A stretch of DNA of 64,000 bases from Nitrospirales bacterium (GTDB lineage: Bacteria > Nitrospirota > Nitrospiria > Nitrospirales > UBA8639). The stretch spans positions 1 through 64,000 of the forward strand of contig JAAXIB010000014.1 of the NCBI GenBank assembly GCA_012270585.1. Direction: 5' to 3'. Numbering within the stretch: position 1 is the first letter of the stretch; every line of letters starts with the position of its first letter. The notes under the pieces were generated by a model. It was not told the origin of the DNA and searched no databases. It was given only the letters and a program-made list of their open reading frames with translations. The translations under genes and the position numbers were made by a program. Shown here in pieces: positions 35,899 through 44,839 of the stretch.

Positions 35899-36924
35899 TT
35901 ACAAAGCCGATAATGCTTTTTCCAATCGACGCTGCCCATCCAAAAACTCCAATTCGAGAAAAACGGCAAAAAGAGGCGTGGGAACCGACCAACTCGATTG
36001 CACTTTTATCAGATCTTTTTCCGTCGTGAGCACCAAGTCCGGGTTGCTCTGCTCAATACGTCGATAAATACCTTCGACTCTGGAATGGACATACGCTTCA
36101 TGATCCCGAAAAACAAGTTCATCCACCACCTGCATGCCGAGCGCTTTCACCGTCCGGTTGAACTGGTTCGGGTTGCCGATGCCGCTGAAGATGAGCACCT
36201 TTTTCCCGCAGGCGTCGGAAAGCGGCATGATTTCCGAGGCGCCGACCAATTCTTTGACTGTGAATCTCGTGGTGATGGGATAGATGCTGGAACCCATGGC
36301 TGTCTCAATGGGTTCCAATACGTTGGGAATCATTGACTCATTCTCAACCCGCGTCAGAATGATATCCGACGCTCTTCTGGCTTCACCGAGCGGTTCCCGG
36401 AGTCTCCCCACGGGCAACAATTCTCTCATTCCTGCGGGATCGGAACTATCCACCAACAACAGGTTCACCTCACGGTCGAGGCCCAAATGTTGAAACCCGT
36501 CATCCAGAACGAAACAGTCGACGGACATTCGGCTCAACACCCAACGGCCCAATGCATACCGGTCGACCCCGACGGCTACGACAACACCCCGACACCGTGT
36601 CGCCATCAGATAGGGTTCATCGCCCGCCTCATGGGGTCCGGCAAGAATCGACGTTCCATCGGATACCAGCAAAAATTCCCGTTGACTATTGCGACGGTAC
36701 CCCCGGCTCAAGATGGCTGGCTTTTTCCCTTGTTCCAACAGCTTTTCAGCCACCCACATGGCCATGGGTGTTTTCCCCGTTCCGCCAGCCGTGAGGTTCC
36801 CCACACTGACGACCGGACAGGGCAACCGGCGTCGCCTCAACCATCCTCGTTCATACAGCCACGTCCGAAAACACGTTGCGAATTGATACGGGCCGGCTAG
36901 CAGCGACTTCCATCCATTCATCAT
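35899..36924 (-). CDS. lpxK: Tetraacyldisaccharide 4'-kinase
   Basis: Phosphorylates the 4' position of the tetraacyl disaccharide, giving lipid IVA. About 341 residues from the ATG at 36924. An N-terminal membrane-associating helix (LLAGPYQFATCFRTWLYERG) is followed by the P-loop VSVGNLTAGGTGKTPMAMWV, then GYRRNSQREF and the DDGFQHLGLDREVNLLLVD catalytic block typical of LpxK. Longer starts within waaA are possible, but the ATG at 36924, five bases after the waaA stop at 36929, fits operon spacing. Preceded by waaA and followed by the repeat block at 35752-35863. Confidence 0.93.
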   Translation of the reverse strand: MMNGWKSLLAGPYQFATCFRTWLYERGWLRRRRLPCPVVSVGNLTAGGTGKTPMAMWVAEKLLEQGKKPAILSRGYRRNSQREFLLVSDGTSILAGPHEAGDEPYLMATRCRGVVVAVGVDRYALGRWVLSRMSVDCFVLDDGFQHLGLDREVNLLLVDSSDPAGMRELLPVGRLREPLGEARRASDIILTRVENESMIPNVLEPIETAMGSSIYPITTRFTVKELVGASEIMPLSDACGKKVLIFSGIGNPNQFNRTVKALGMQVVDELVFRDHEAYVHSRVEGIYRRIEQSNPDLVLTTEKDLIKVQSSWSVPTPLFAVFLELEFLDGQRRLEKALSAL

Positions 36925-36928
36925 GGGT

Positions 36929-38263
36929 TCATGAATGCACACCCGTCTCTCTTTCGAGAAGAAAGGAAGGACGTGGCTCACGAAAGCCGAAGAGTTGTTC
37001 GACCATATTCAAATTTCTCTCGACCACCCCTTGATTGTCGTCGATGGTCTTCCCCGCATTCAGCCCTACACGAGCCACCCAATCCTGATTTTGCATTCCC
37101 TTCACAAATGCTTCGGTCAATTCCTGCCCATTCCGGACTCGGATACCGCCTCCGGATTCAATCAACAACTCAGCAATTTCCTGGCAGTGATCCGTATACG
37201 GGCCGAAACACACCGGCTTTCCCCAAGCCGGCGGTTCCAGGAGATTATGCCCTCCGACGGGAACCAGTGTCCCGCCGACGAACGTCATAAACGCCAGACC
37301 GTACACTTGAGCCAATTCTCCGCGGGTATCCAGAAGGATGATCCGGGGTCCCCCGGGTTTCTGCTGACCCTCTTCACGCAACTGGCTTCGTCTCACCACG
37401 GGAAACCCGAACGCCTCGATTGTCCGGGTCAGAACGTCGCTTCGTTCGATATGTCGTGGAGCCAACAGCAGGACCGCGTTGGGGAATGAACGGATCAAGT
37501 CGCGGTAACTCTCCAAAAGGATTTCTTCCTCCGTGGGATGAGTACTCCCCGCCACCAGCAGCAGTTCGTCTTCCGACACCCCGAATGCCGAACGCTCAAT
37601 CGATGATTGGGACACGAAACCTCCGTTCATCGTCAGATCGAATTTCATGTTCCCCGTACGGTGCATCCGGCCCGGCAAAGCCCCCAACTCGATGAATCGT
37701 CGTTCATCCCGTCCGGTTTGCAGAAGCCCCAAGGAAACGGCCGAAAGAATCTGCCGCATGAATGGCCTGATCCACTGGTAGCGGAGAAAGGAACGGGACG
37801 ACAAGCGCCCGTTTATAATAACGGAAGGGATTCCCCGGCGGGAGAGAGCCCGTAACAGGTTCGGCCAAAGCTCGGTTTCAACGACTAAAAACCCAATCGG
37901 ATTCAGGGATGCAATGAACCGGTTGACGATCCAAGGATAATCCAAGGGCAAAAAACAATGTGTCGCGATGCCAGCCAATCGTTGTCGCACGGCTTCCTGG
38001 CCGGTTTCCGTAATGGTCGACACGATGATCTTGACCGCGGGATATCGGTGATGGAGCGTCGTCACAAACGGCACGATGGCGGAAATTTCTCCCAATGACA
38101 CGGCATGAATCCAAAGAACTTTATCCTGAGAGCCCCACCCCCGAGGCACAACCCATCCTATCCGTTGTAACAGGCCGGATCGACACCGTTTTTTGAGCAA
38201 CAACGCGCAAAGAATGAATGGAAAACTGAGGATAAGGAGCACATTATAAATGCCGTACCACAT
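36929..38263 (-). CDS. waaA: 3-deoxy-D-manno-octulosonic acid transferase
   Basis: 444 residues. Transfers Kdo from CMP-Kdo to lipid IVA at the inner membrane. An N-terminal membrane anchor (VLLILSFPFILCALLL) precedes the GT30 domain: LWIHAVSLGEISA, VETELWPNLL and PSVIINGRLS, then the C-terminal GT-B half with VGGTLVPVGGHNLLEPPAWG, the CMP-binding motif. The ATG at 38263 has AGGGGA about eleven bases upstream. It comes after the DUF374 acyltransferase gene and 4 bases before the lpxK start. Confidence 0.94.
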   Translation of the reverse strand: MWYGIYNVLLILSFPFILCALLLKKRCRSGLLQRIGWVVPRGWGSQDKVLWIHAVSLGEISAIVPFVTTLHHRYPAVKIIVSTITETGQEAVRQRLAGIATHCFLPLDYPWIVNRFIASLNPIGFLVVETELWPNLLRALSRRGIPSVIINGRLSSRSFLRYQWIRPFMRQILSAVSLGLLQTGRDERRFIELGALPGRMHRTGNMKFDLTMNGGFVSQSSIERSAFGVSEDELLLVAGSTHPTEEEILLESYRDLIRSFPNAVLLLAPRHIERSDVLTRTIEAFGFPVVRRSQLREEGQQKPGGPRIILLDTRGELAQVYGLAFMTFVGGTLVPVGGHNLLEPPAWGKPVCFGPYTDHCQEIAELLIESGGGIRVRNGQELTEAFVKGMQNQDWVARVGLNAGKTIDDNQGVVERNLNMVEQLFGFREPRPSFLLERETGVHS

Positions 38264-38336: not shown

Positions 38337-38995
38337 CTATTCACCCGAATCATAACACATCGCTTCCGCTTCTGATGACAGTGAGGAGAGAGTGGTTTCC
38401 AACTCCACCCGTATTCGTTCCATGGTAGCAGCATCGGCATCACGGTCAACCCAAATCGGGTCGCCCCACAGAAAGATTCCACGGGAAAACGGATACGGGA
38501 CTATAAATCGATCCCAACTGGAAAAGACTTTTTTTTTGAGCACGCAAACGCCAGAGGAACAATAGGGAGACCGGTGAATTTGGCGAGGGCAACGACCCCC
38601 TGTTGCACGCAATGCCTGGGCCCTTTGGGACCATCGGGCGTAATAACAAGATCAACGCCCTGCCGGCCAAGGCGAATGAGTTGACGCAATGCCTTTGGCC
38701 CACCCCTTGTCGTTGATCCACGGACGGCTCCGAACCCAAATCGTTTGACGATTCGATAAATGAGTTCCCCGTCCCGATGCCGGCTGATCAGAATCTCGGG
38801 GTGAGGGCCACGATAGCCCAACGGAATCATCAACTGTTGCCCGTGCCAGAATGCCAGGATAATATTGCGACCGTCCTGATAAACATGATCGACCGGCTCG
38901 AATCGATAGGACTGCAAGGACATTGACTTGCCAAGAAGACGAATCGTTACCACGCCGAGAAACGACAGGATGCTCAATTTCAACCGATTTATCAT
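38337..38995 (-). CDS. DUF374/lysophospholipid acyltransferase-like protein, interrupted by a frameshift at a nine-A run
   Basis: The zero frame opens at ATG 38995 (MINRLKLSILSFLGVV, a membrane anchor), carries the LPLAT motifs AFWHGQQLMIP, SRHRDGELI and VITPDGPKGPRHCVQQG, and stops at 38501-38503 after 164 codons. The -1 frame then encodes the expected C-terminus (VFSSWDRFIVPYPFSRG, then IFLWGDP) to 38337. The two join at A9 (plus-strand T at 38529-38537), which contains the slippery heptamer A-AAA-AAG in the right register. Full product 219 residues, the family's usual length. DUF374 proteins add secondary acyl chains to lipid A or core precursors. Whether this is programmed slippage, transcription slippage, a pseudogene or a sequencing error cannot be settled from this sequence alone. 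Confidence 0.75.
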
Positions 38996-39017: not shown

Positions 39018-40766
39018 CTACCGCAACGTGGGCGCCTCGGGAACGTCGTGGAATTGGGTTTGATAGAGTCGCGTGTACACCCCGTTTCGACGAAGCAATT
39101 CATGATGGATACCCTCTTCCACAATGCGCCCTTCATCCAGAACGATAATGCGGTCCGCGTGTTGAACGGTCGAGAGGCGGTGCGCAATGACAAGCGTCGT
39201 CCGGTTTTTCATCAATTCAGCCAGGGCAGCCTGGACGTTTCGTTCGGATTCGGTATCCAAGGCGGAGGTGGCCTCATCGAGAATGAGCAGAGAGGGATTC
39301 CGCAACATCGCGCGGGCGATGGCCAACCGTTGACGTTGCCCGCCGGAAAGGTTGACGCCGTTTTCTCCTATCAGCGTATTCAAGCCCTCGGGTAATTCTT
39401 CAATAAATTCCCACGCATGCGCCGCCCGTGCTGCCTGGATGATTTCTTCCTCGGACGCTTCCGAGCGACCGTACGCAATGTTGGCCCGTACGGTATCATC
39501 AAACAGAACCGTCTCCTGAGAGACGATGGCCATCTGTGCCCGCAAGGAGGTCAACGTCACGTCCCTGATATCCCGTCCGTCAATCAGAATGCGGCCTTCT
39601 GAGTGATCATGCAACCTCGGGACCAAACTCATCAAGGTGGATTTGCCGCTCCCGCTTTTCCCGACCAACGCCACCACTTCGCCGAACTCGACGGTGAGGT
39701 GAACGTGCTCGATTGCCGCTTCGTCACTCCCTTCATAATAAAAGCTCACGTCACGAAACTCCAGGGACCGCGAGATGGCCGGCAATTCCACGCGTCCGTG
39801 ATCATGAATGAATTCGTGATCCCGATCCAGCATTTCAAAGACTCGATTCGCCGCAGCGATCGCCTGTTGAATCAGCACATTGGCGCCGGCAAGTCTCTTT
39901 ACCGGCCTATATGCCAAAAACATGGCCGCCAAAAAGGAAAAAAATTCTCCCGGTTTCATTTGTCCATCAATGACCAAGAGCCCCCCGTACCACACAATAA
40001 AGGCAATTCCGCTTATCCCGATCACTTCCAACAGCGGCGAACTCAGCGCCGCCAGTTGTGCCGACTTCATCACTGCCCGCAAATATGCGGCATTCCCTCT
40101 GGAAAACCGTTGTTGTTCAATGGGTTCACCCCCGTACGCTTTGACCATGCGAATGCCGGCAAAGGCTTCTTTCAGCGTCGAGGCCATATCCCCCATCGAT
40201 TCCTGCCCCCTGGCGGCCAACTTTCGCAACCGCTTACCGATCTTGACGATGGCGTAGGTTGAGACCGGCATCACCAGGATCAACGCCGTGGCCAACTTCC
40301 AATTCTGGTAAAAGGCCACGCCGGTCAACGCCAGGCAGGTCAGTCCCTGTTGAAGCAAATCTTTAATCACATTGGGAATGGCATTGGCCATTTCATTGAC
40401 ATCGTTGATGACCCGCGCGACCAGACGACCGCTGGAATGTTTATGATGAAACGTCAGGGGAAGGCGGAGAAAGTGCCCAAACAATTTCTGCCGGATTTCG
40501 GCCACCACGCGATGACCCACGTAACTCATCAGATAGGCTTGGCCATACGAGAAGACCCCTTTCAACGCGGCCGCACCGAGAATCACCAGGGGCAAAACCA
40601 TAAGGAGCAGTTGATCCTTGGCAATAAAAATTTCGTCCAGGACCGGTTGCACCAGCCAAGCATACAATCCTGACATGCCCGCCACGCCCGCCGCACACAC
40701 GCAAGCCGCGACCAACCGGACCCGGTACGCATGCACGTAAAACAAGAGTCTGAGAAAAGCGGTCAT
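39018..40766 (-). CDS. msbA: Lipid A export permease/ATP-binding protein MsbA
   Basis: 582 residues from the ATG at 40766. Half-size ABC transporter: six transmembrane segments in the N-terminal 310 residues, then VALVGKSGSGKSTLMSLV (Walker A), LSGGQRQRLAIARAML (signature) and LLILDEATSALD (Walker B). The context (between lpxB and an acyltransferase gene) points to MsbA, which flips lipid A-core across the inner membrane. The start: an ATG four bases into the lpxB stop (ATGA at 40763-40766) is typical coupling; an ATG at 40775 gives three more residues. Confidence 0.9.
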   Translation of the reverse strand: MTAFLRLLFYVHAYRVRLVAACVCAAGVAGMSGLYAWLVQPVLDEIFIAKDQLLLMVLPLVILGAAALKGVFSYGQAYLMSYVGHRVVAEIRQKLFGHFLRLPLTFHHKHSSGRLVARVINDVNEMANAIPNVIKDLLQQGLTCLALTGVAFYQNWKLATALILVMPVSTYAIVKIGKRLRKLAARGQESMGDMASTLKEAFAGIRMVKAYGGEPIEQQRFSRGNAAYLRAVMKSAQLAALSSPLLEVIGISGIAFIVWYGGLLVIDGQMKPGEFFSFLAAMFLAYRPVKRLAGANVLIQQAIAAANRVFEMLDRDHEFIHDHGRVELPAISRSLEFRDVSFYYEGSDEAAIEHVHLTVEFGEVVALVGKSGSGKSTLMSLVPRLHDHSEGRILIDGRDIRDVTLTSLRAQMAIVSQETVLFDDTVRANIAYGRSEASEEEIIQAARAAHAWEFIEELPEGLNTLIGENGVNLSGGQRQRLAIARAMLRNPSLLILDEATSALDTESERNVQAALAELMKNRTTLVIAHRLSTVQHADRIIVLDEGRIVEEGIHHELLRRNGVYTRLYQTQFHDVPEAPTLR

Positions 40767-41899
40767 GCCTGACATTCGGCCAACACGACCTCCGCCGCTC
40801 TAAGAGAAGCCCCAGGAGATCCAAGCCGGGCGCGAATGTCGCCCAACGCTTCCCGCATTTGGTCATACCGCGTTCGATCCTTCAGAAGGCGAAGCGCCTC
40901 CTCGCTCAATCGTTCCGCCGTCATCTCCGATTGCAATAATTCCGGAACAATGCCGCGCCCGGCGACCAGGTTCACCAAACCCACGTGTTCGACGGTTATG
41001 AGCATTCTTGCAAGAAGGTAGGTCAACCGGGAAACACGATACGCAAGGATCATGGGTGTGCCCACCAGCGCAGCCTGCAAGGTGGCCGTCCCCGAAGCCA
41101 CCAACAGTAAATCCGCGGCTGCCATGACCTCGGTTGGTCGATTGGGCACCACGGTCACGGGAAGCGTCTTCCGAGCAACCACCTCGTTGACCCACTCCCC
41201 AGCTACCGTGGGGGCTTGTCCGATGACGCAATGAAGGTCGGGAAACGATTCCCTGATTCGCCTCGCCGCCTCCATCATGGCCGGCAGCAGCGACTGGATT
41301 TCGGAATGGCGACTCCCGGGAAACACTCCCAGCATTAAGCCTTGAGCCGGAAGACCCAATTGCTGTCGTAAACGGGCCGCATCATCGCGTTGTGCCACCT
41401 GGTCGAGTAAGGGATGTCCCACGAAACTACAGGGTACGTCGGCTTGGCGAAATATCGGCTCCTCAAAGGGTAGAATCACGATCATCCGGCGTACCACGCG
41501 CCTGATCAAATTGATCCGGTGTCGCCCCCAGGCCCAAATCTGCGGAGCTATATAGTAGATCACGCGATGGCCGAGCTTGGCCGCGATCCTGGCTAATCGA
41601 AGGTTCATGGACGGATTATCCACAAAGACCACGCCGTCCAAGGACTCCCGTCTGAAAAATCGTTTCAAGGTCAAGAGGTTGGCCAGTCCTTTCCAAATCA
41701 TGACCGGTCCCGGCACACCGACGACGTCCAGGCGATGTAAGTCTTGCACCAATTCCACTCCTGCGGCCCGCATGTGCTGTCCGCCTACCCCAACGAGCCT
41801 GATCTCAGGCTGAAGTTCTTTTAAGGCTTTTGCCAAGTCTGCACCATGAAGGTCACCCGACGCCTCACCGGTGACGATCATGATTGACAGACCAGCCAT
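40763..41899 (-). CDS. lpxB: Lipid-A-disaccharide synthase
   Basis: 378 residues. Condenses UDP-2,3-diacylglucosamine with lipid X to the tetraacyl disaccharide. The N-terminus IMIVTGEASGDLHGADLA is the LpxB signature; VFVDNPSMNLRLA and YYIAPQIWAWGRHRINLIRR are its catalytic region, and FPGSRHSEIQSLLP its GT-B C-terminal half. Membrane-associated on the cytoplasmic side. It starts 9 bases after the Gfo/Idh stop and overlaps msbA. Confidence 0.95.
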   Translation of the reverse strand: MAGLSIMIVTGEASGDLHGADLAKALKELQPEIRLVGVGGQHMRAAGVELVQDLHRLDVVGVPGPVMIWKGLANLLTLKRFFRRESLDGVVFVDNPSMNLRLARIAAKLGHRVIYYIAPQIWAWGRHRINLIRRVVRRMIVILPFEEPIFRQADVPCSFVGHPLLDQVAQRDDAARLRQQLGLPAQGLMLGVFPGSRHSEIQSLLPAMMEAARRIRESFPDLHCVIGQAPTVAGEWVNEVVARKTLPVTVVPNRPTEVMAAADLLLVASGTATLQAALVGTPMILAYRVSRLTYLLARMLITVEHVGLVNLVAGRGIVPELLQSEMTAERLSEEALRLLKDRTRYDQMREALGDIRARLGSPGASLRAAEVVLAECQA

Positions 41900-44017: not shown

Positions 44018-44839
44018 CTAAAATTCTTCCTGATCGCTTTGACCTTTTCGCGCAGAACGACACATCCCACGAATCGAGGTTTCCAAAAACGTCAGCAGGA
44101 CCAGGACGTCAGGACTATCCTGGAATTGATGGCGCGCCAGTTTGATGGAATCGGCCATGCGCTGATTTTTTCGGAACAGCAAGCTGTAGGCTTGTTTCAA
44201 TGTGCGGATACGCTGGGCGGAAAACCCTCCCCGACGAAGCCCGACGGCGTTGATCCCATAAAGATTGGCCCGGTTTCCGACCGCACGCATGAACGGAGGC
44301 ACGTCCCTTGCGACGGCGGAACACCCGCCGATCATGGCATAATCCCCGATCCGCACGTATTGATGGACGCCGACCAACCCACCGATGACCGCGTAGTTCC
44401 CGACCGAAATATGCCCGGCAAGCGTCGCGGCATTGGCCATGACGACATGATCGCCGATGTGACAATCGTGCGCAACGTGCACGTAGGCCATCAAAAAATT
44501 ATGCCGGCCGATCGTCGTGACACCTCCGCCAAATGCCGTCCCGCGGTGAATCGTGACGTACTCCCGTAAGATATTTTCATCGCCGATGATTACGCGCGTC
44601 GGCTCATCATGATACTGAAGGTGCTGGGGCGGAGCCCCTATCGAAGCATAGGGAAAAATTTTACACCGTTGTCCGATTTCCGTATGGCCCTCTATACACA
44701 CGTACGCACACAGTTCAGTGCCCAGACCGACTTTCACGTGTTCGCCGATCACACAAAAAGGACCCACAATCACGTCCTCATCGAGTTCGGATTTCTGATG
44801 CACGATAGCCGTGGGATGAATTGACCGACTCGACATCAT
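44018..44839 (-). CDS. lpxA: UDP-N-acetylglucosamine acyltransferase
   Basis: 273 residues. First step of lipid A synthesis, adding a hydroxyacyl chain to position 3 of UDP-GlcNAc (or, if the GnnA-like route holds, to the 3-amine of UDP-GlcNAc3N). A left-handed beta-helix of hexapeptide repeats (IHPTAIVHQKSELDEDVIVG, then NFLMAYVHVAHDCHIGDHV, which holds the catalytic His) is followed by a C-terminal helical domain. Trimer in the cytoplasm. Its ATG at 44839 shares one base with the fabZ stop (TAATG). Confidence 0.95.
   Translation of the reverse strand: MMSSRSIHPTAIVHQKSELDEDVIVGPFCVIGEHVKVGLGTELCAYVCIEGHTEIGQRCKIFPYASIGAPPQHLQYHDEPTRVIIGDENILREYVTIHRGTAFGGGVTTIGRHNFLMAYVHVAHDCHIGDHVVMANAATLAGHISVGNYAVIGGLVGVHQYVRIGDYAMIGGCSAVARDVPPFMRAVGNRANLYGINAVGLRRGGFSAQRIRTLKQAYSLLFRKNQRMADSIKLARHQFQDSPDVLVLLTFLETSIRGMCRSARKGQSDQEEF

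Follow-up and report, generated by a model that had tools for sequence, protein, structure and literature searches.

A lipid A acyltransferase gene of the Nitrospirota, split at a conserved run of nine or ten A's and probably expressed through slippage

Expression that depends on slippage is already known as a kind of mechanism, although the described cases differ from the one presented here in ways that matter. In Blochmannia, old frameshifts in homopolymers have reportedly been retained through slippage (as is said of work by Wernegreen from 2010), but these are AT-rich endosymbionts, whereas the gene considered here belongs to Nitrospirota with few runs of nine A's (A9; 17 such runs, and no run of ten, in the 2.5-Mb host genome). 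Thermus thermophilus dnaX, like our gene, contains nine A's within coding sequence, and slippage there produces mRNAs in all frames with no need of a ribosomal signal (PMC1088944, PMC5009743). The outcome is reversed, however: in Thermus the unslipped mRNA encodes the long protein and slippage yields the short one, whereas here slippage appears to be needed for the long, active form. The latter arrangement is shared with Shigella mxiE and Citrobacter rodentium tssM, whose longer products also require slippage (PMC1088944; PMC4256274, in which the tssM run is A11), but those are secretion-system genes of a few enterobacteria, whereas ours is an envelope housekeeping gene found across a phylum.

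The protein itself resembles LpxJ (DUF374) of Helicobacter, Campylobacter and Rickettsia in family, in fold class and in the residues W-H, D, D and W-D. PMC6148475 describes no frame break in those enzymes, and the Nitrospirota enzyme is an LpxJ by prediction. Among the open-licence papers searched we found no report of a slippage-dependent lpxJ or of its deep conservation, and a large survey (Antonov 2013) included one Nitrospirae genome; obligatory slippage conserved phylum-wide in an envelope gene appears to be new to that literature.

A lipid A operon gene in two reading frames

The window, that is, the whole stretch of 64 kb that was analysed, carries on its minus strand a lipid A operon with genes for LpxA, LpxB, MsbA, a DUF374 protein, Kdo transferase and LpxK. 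The features are as follows.

38337 to 38995, minus strand: predicted DUF374/LpxJ-type lipid A late acyltransferase gene (PF04028), in two frames, 219 amino acids when joined
38501 to 38995, minus strand: zero-frame part, 164 codons and a stop, with the W-H and D-G motifs inside
38529 to 38537, minus strand: putative slippage run, A9, reading T9 on the plus strand; every one of the 104 split homologues has 9 or 10 A's here
38337 to 38528, minus strand: tail in the -1 frame, VFSSWDRFIVPYP..., with the W-D pair essential in LpxJ inside; under purifying selection in that frame
39018 to 40775, minus strand: MsbA lipid A exporter gene, upstream neighbour (TIGR02203, over cut-off)
36929 to 38263, minus strand: Kdo transferase (WaaA/KdtA) gene, downstream neighbour (PF04413)
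35899 to 36981, minus strand: LpxK gene (TIGR00682, over cut-off)
40763 to 41899, minus strand: LpxB gene (TIGR00215, over cut-off)
44018 to 44839, minus strand: LpxA gene (TIGR01852, over cut-off)

From the ATG at 38995 the zero frame of the DUF374 gene runs for 164 codons to a stop that lies eight codons past the A9, and coding sequence continues beyond this stop, 192 bases being open in the -1 frame down to 38337. The initial annotation had described just this arrangement, with the A9 as the switch point, TCA AAA AAA AAG as the zero-frame codons on it and 219 residues in the joined protein, and each of these points is borne out. The run is also the sole homopolymer of at least nine bases in the window. 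The DUF374 domain scores 96 bits against a curated cut-off of 26.8 (Pfam PF04028), and the host genome has a single gene of this kind; no PF03279 (LpxL/LpxM-type) gene was found in that genome or in five other tested genomes of its family, and such genes are present in some other genomes of the order and phylum. The host genome thus seems to have no lipid A late acyltransferase gene besides the DUF374 gene. Operon context and fold predict that the Nitrospirota protein is a late acyltransferase of the LpxJ type and carries out secondary acylation of lipid A.

In the alignment of intact relatives, W50 H51, D75, D121 and W161 D162 are invariant, and their spacing matches that of W60 H61, D86, D132 and W172 D173 of Rickettsia typhi LpxJ to within a residue (comparison with PMC6148475). 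By motif and spacing, W161-D162, which sit in the tail 4–5 codons past the run, correspond to R. typhi W172-D173, and replacement of the latter abolishes activity in mutagenesis (PMC6148475). A structural model of an intact relative (L041; pLDDT 92), closest among solved structures to PatA, PlsC and LpxM, places two strands and the C-terminal helices past the slip site. Because the essential W-D pair and these structural elements lie beyond the run, and because the genome has one DUF374 gene and no PF03279 gene, the 164 zero-frame residues by themselves would not be expected to make an active enzyme, and the full protein should be required.

Conservation of the A-run and the probable nature of the slip

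A search with the joined protein recovered the gene in two frame-shifted pieces throughout the genus (14 of 14 genomes) and, within the order, in nearly every genome with a DUF374 gene; genomes from further families of the class and from other parts of the phylum have it in two pieces as well. Among 125 distinct homologues, drawn from this order, from four further families of the class and from four families in other parts of the Nitrospirota, the frame breaks at the A-run in 104, and the shift is -1 in 103 of these. Conservation of the run and of the same shift in relatives, which the initial annotation had proposed as a check, is hence extensive. In each of the 104 split genes the run counts 9 or 10 A's, whereas 20 of the 21 intact homologues have runs of 2–8 and the remaining one (L041) has 10 in frame; a run of at least nine is thus found in 104/104 split and 1/21 intact genes (Fisher p = 3e-22, with rows that are not independent). 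This invariance is not a codon habit, since elsewhere in these genes AAA accounts for 42% of Lys codons and TCA for 8.5% of Ser codons.

Nearly everything else about the site is variable. The run may start at codon position 3 (TCA AAA AAA AAN) or at position 1 (TCT, CGT or CGC followed by AAA AAA AAA), the base 3′ of it may be C, G or T, the last zero-frame codon on it, in the A-site, is AAC in 49, AAG in 33 and AAA in 21 of the 104 split genes, and the zero-frame stop falls anywhere from 1 to 81 codons past it. It is therefore the length of the run, and not the dnaX-type heptamer to which the initial annotation had given the key role, that is conserved.

These observations bear directly on the main rival explanation, in which the mRNA is unaltered and the ribosome itself shifts by -1 on A_AAA_AAA or A_AAA_AAG. 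Suitable sequences are available, as every run, in either phase, contains a zero-frame A_AAA_AAA, and the AAG class contains A_AAA_AAG as well. Ribosomal heptamers need 6–7 A's and usually stimulators, and a tRNA-Lys(CUU) should, from the dnaX work, weaken slippage on AAG. Yet all split genes have at least nine A's: the AAG class keeps an A before the heptamer and the AAC class keeps a ninth A. AAC is the commonest A-site codon, A_AAA_AAG is not conserved, and tRNA-Lys(CUU) is encoded beside tRNA-Lys(UUU) in the genomes checked. Consistent with the earlier remark that stimulators were lacking, an SD-like element was found in 1 of 103 split genes, and no downstream hairpin is conserved among them (mean folding z = -0.37).

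A second point for the ribosome is that synonymous change is reduced right after the run, with ratios of 0.16, 0.22 and 0.42 at codons 157, 159 and 160. Put otherwise, three of the four codons 157–160 (about 38516–38528 in the window) show 16–42% of the expected synonymous change, and beyond them it is mostly normal. Run length alone leaves this unexplained; it may reflect a context effect on slippage. On balance we regard a ribosomal shift as rather improbable.

The alternative, already raised in the initial annotation and supported by the conserved run length, is that RNA polymerase slips. The threshold for transcriptional slippage is nine A's in many bacteria (PMC1088944, PMC5009743), and ribosome sliding in Escherichia coli requires 11 (PMC4363877); the runs of the split genes, at 9–10, lie at the former and below the latter. 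A run of about nine or more A's or T's at the frame change, as is looked for in transcriptional slippage, is present in 104 of 104 split genes, and both the site and the frame change are conserved, with coding selection beyond them. Given the lack of a conserved SD-like element or hairpin, the two tRNA-Lys genes, and a run that stays below 11 and whose minimum equals the threshold of nine, we infer slippage by RNA polymerase and not by the ribosome. Taken as a whole, the reading we think probable is that of a functional LpxJ-type gene whose full-length product arises through a programmed, most likely transcriptional, slip at 9–10 A's.

Other long runs in the host genome offer some context. A9 occurs in frame in the ribonuclease P protein gene rnpA (L091, C29:51005) and in a biotin ligase gene (L101, C72:80934), so that slippage at A9 must be partial, and not overwhelming, there. 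T9 runs are found close to the 5′ part of two genes, one PP-loop (tilS-like; L090, C25:130315) and one NAD synthetase-like, named by eye (L096, C47:95427); runs of T may slip too.

Spacing across the run and the history of the break

It is informative to examine the distance between conserved residues on either side of the run. P147 and W161 lie 41 nt apart in 101 of 103 split genes, against 42 nt in 19 of the 21 intact ones. The exceptions among the split genes are L177, an apparent mapping artefact, and L004. The latter (G007:C34) has A10 and, right after it, lacks one T that its nearest relative has, and the offset of its tail differs from -1; this may be an error or a real variant and, if real, its tail would not be served by a ribosomal -1 slip but could be by transcriptional slippage.

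Homopolymers in LPS genes are classical phase switches, and one could therefore suppose a contingency locus in which replication slippage in the A-run turns the gene on and off. An in-frame run of at least nine, however, occurs in only 1 of 105 genes (L041), and the offset is nearly always -1. With the spacing fixed at -1 in 101 of 103 genes, changes in run length come from substitutions instead of indels, and we consider phase variation very improbable.

The remaining alternatives are weaker still. A homopolymer error in sequencing or assembly was a natural suspicion while the finding consisted of one homopolymer in one draft assembly, but with the same break and the same P147-to-W161 spacing in relatives, several of the split copies coming from single-contig genomes, it can be dismissed. 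A pseudogene, as the stop codon ahead of the C-terminus might suggest, is hardly credible given the long-term conservation and the pattern of differences between relatives, which at codon positions 1, 2 and 3 amount to 0.101, 0.057 and 0.374 in the head and to 0.146, 0.090 and 0.327 in the tail when read in the -1 frame; this bias indicates that the tail is coding sequence under purifying selection. Both error and decay had been entertained in the initial annotation, and neither survives. Nor is there much room for a split enzyme assembled from two polypeptides with starts of their own: a TTG codon does open the -1 frame in the window (38612), but in 62 of 103 split genes the stretch ahead of the tail that is open in the -1 frame offers neither ATG nor GTG nor TTG, which excludes separately started halves, ATG is present there in only two, and the W-D pair follows within 4–5 codons of the run.

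In-frame relatives that lack a slippery site, which the initial annotation had anticipated as a counterexample, do exist in a few lineages among the split ones and as distant homologues, but not elsewhere. A tree of the head contains seven changes between the split and intact states. If the distant intact groups are placed outside, it would suggest one gain of the break and about six returns to a single frame, a count made unsure by some deep forks and long branches. The lineages back in a single frame are L041, L071, L072, L076/L114, L104 and L045, and in all but L041 the run has decayed to 2–6 A's. L041 (positions 1496–2206) is a natural in-frame A10 copy inside a split clade that retains its MsbA and Kdo transferase neighbours, and it represents a recent return to one frame. 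In a single scan of genome contigs, no frame break was found outside the Nitrospirota, the relatives from other phyla (L045, L058 and L066–L069) being intact.

Probable slippage and lipid A acylation in the Nitrospirota

In the mechanism that we favour, RNA polymerase would slip on the A-tract and add one A, or another frame-equivalent number, in a fraction of the transcripts. Ordinary translation of the slipped mRNAs would give the 219-residue enzyme, and the unslipped mRNAs would give a 164-residue protein without the W-D pair, the last strands and the helix, presumably inactive. Slippage would probably be partial. One can also imagine, more tentatively, that the slip serves regulation, with lipid A acylation set by how much lpxJ mRNA is slipped relative to unslipped, in response to the state of RNA polymerase, temperature or nucleotide pools. 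This seems to us possible though doubtful; it would account for why the phylum keeps the break although a single indel would remove it, as happened in about six lineages.

For this enzyme the Nitrospirota with the split gene appear to depend on a molecular slip, RNA polymerase being its most likely source. If true, this would be among the most widely conserved bacterial cases of slippage-dependent gene expression, and it would make testable the question of why evolution retains an obligatory transcription error. A gene that is likely annotated as broken in Nitrospira and its relatives, which are major nitrifiers, would in fact be expressed.
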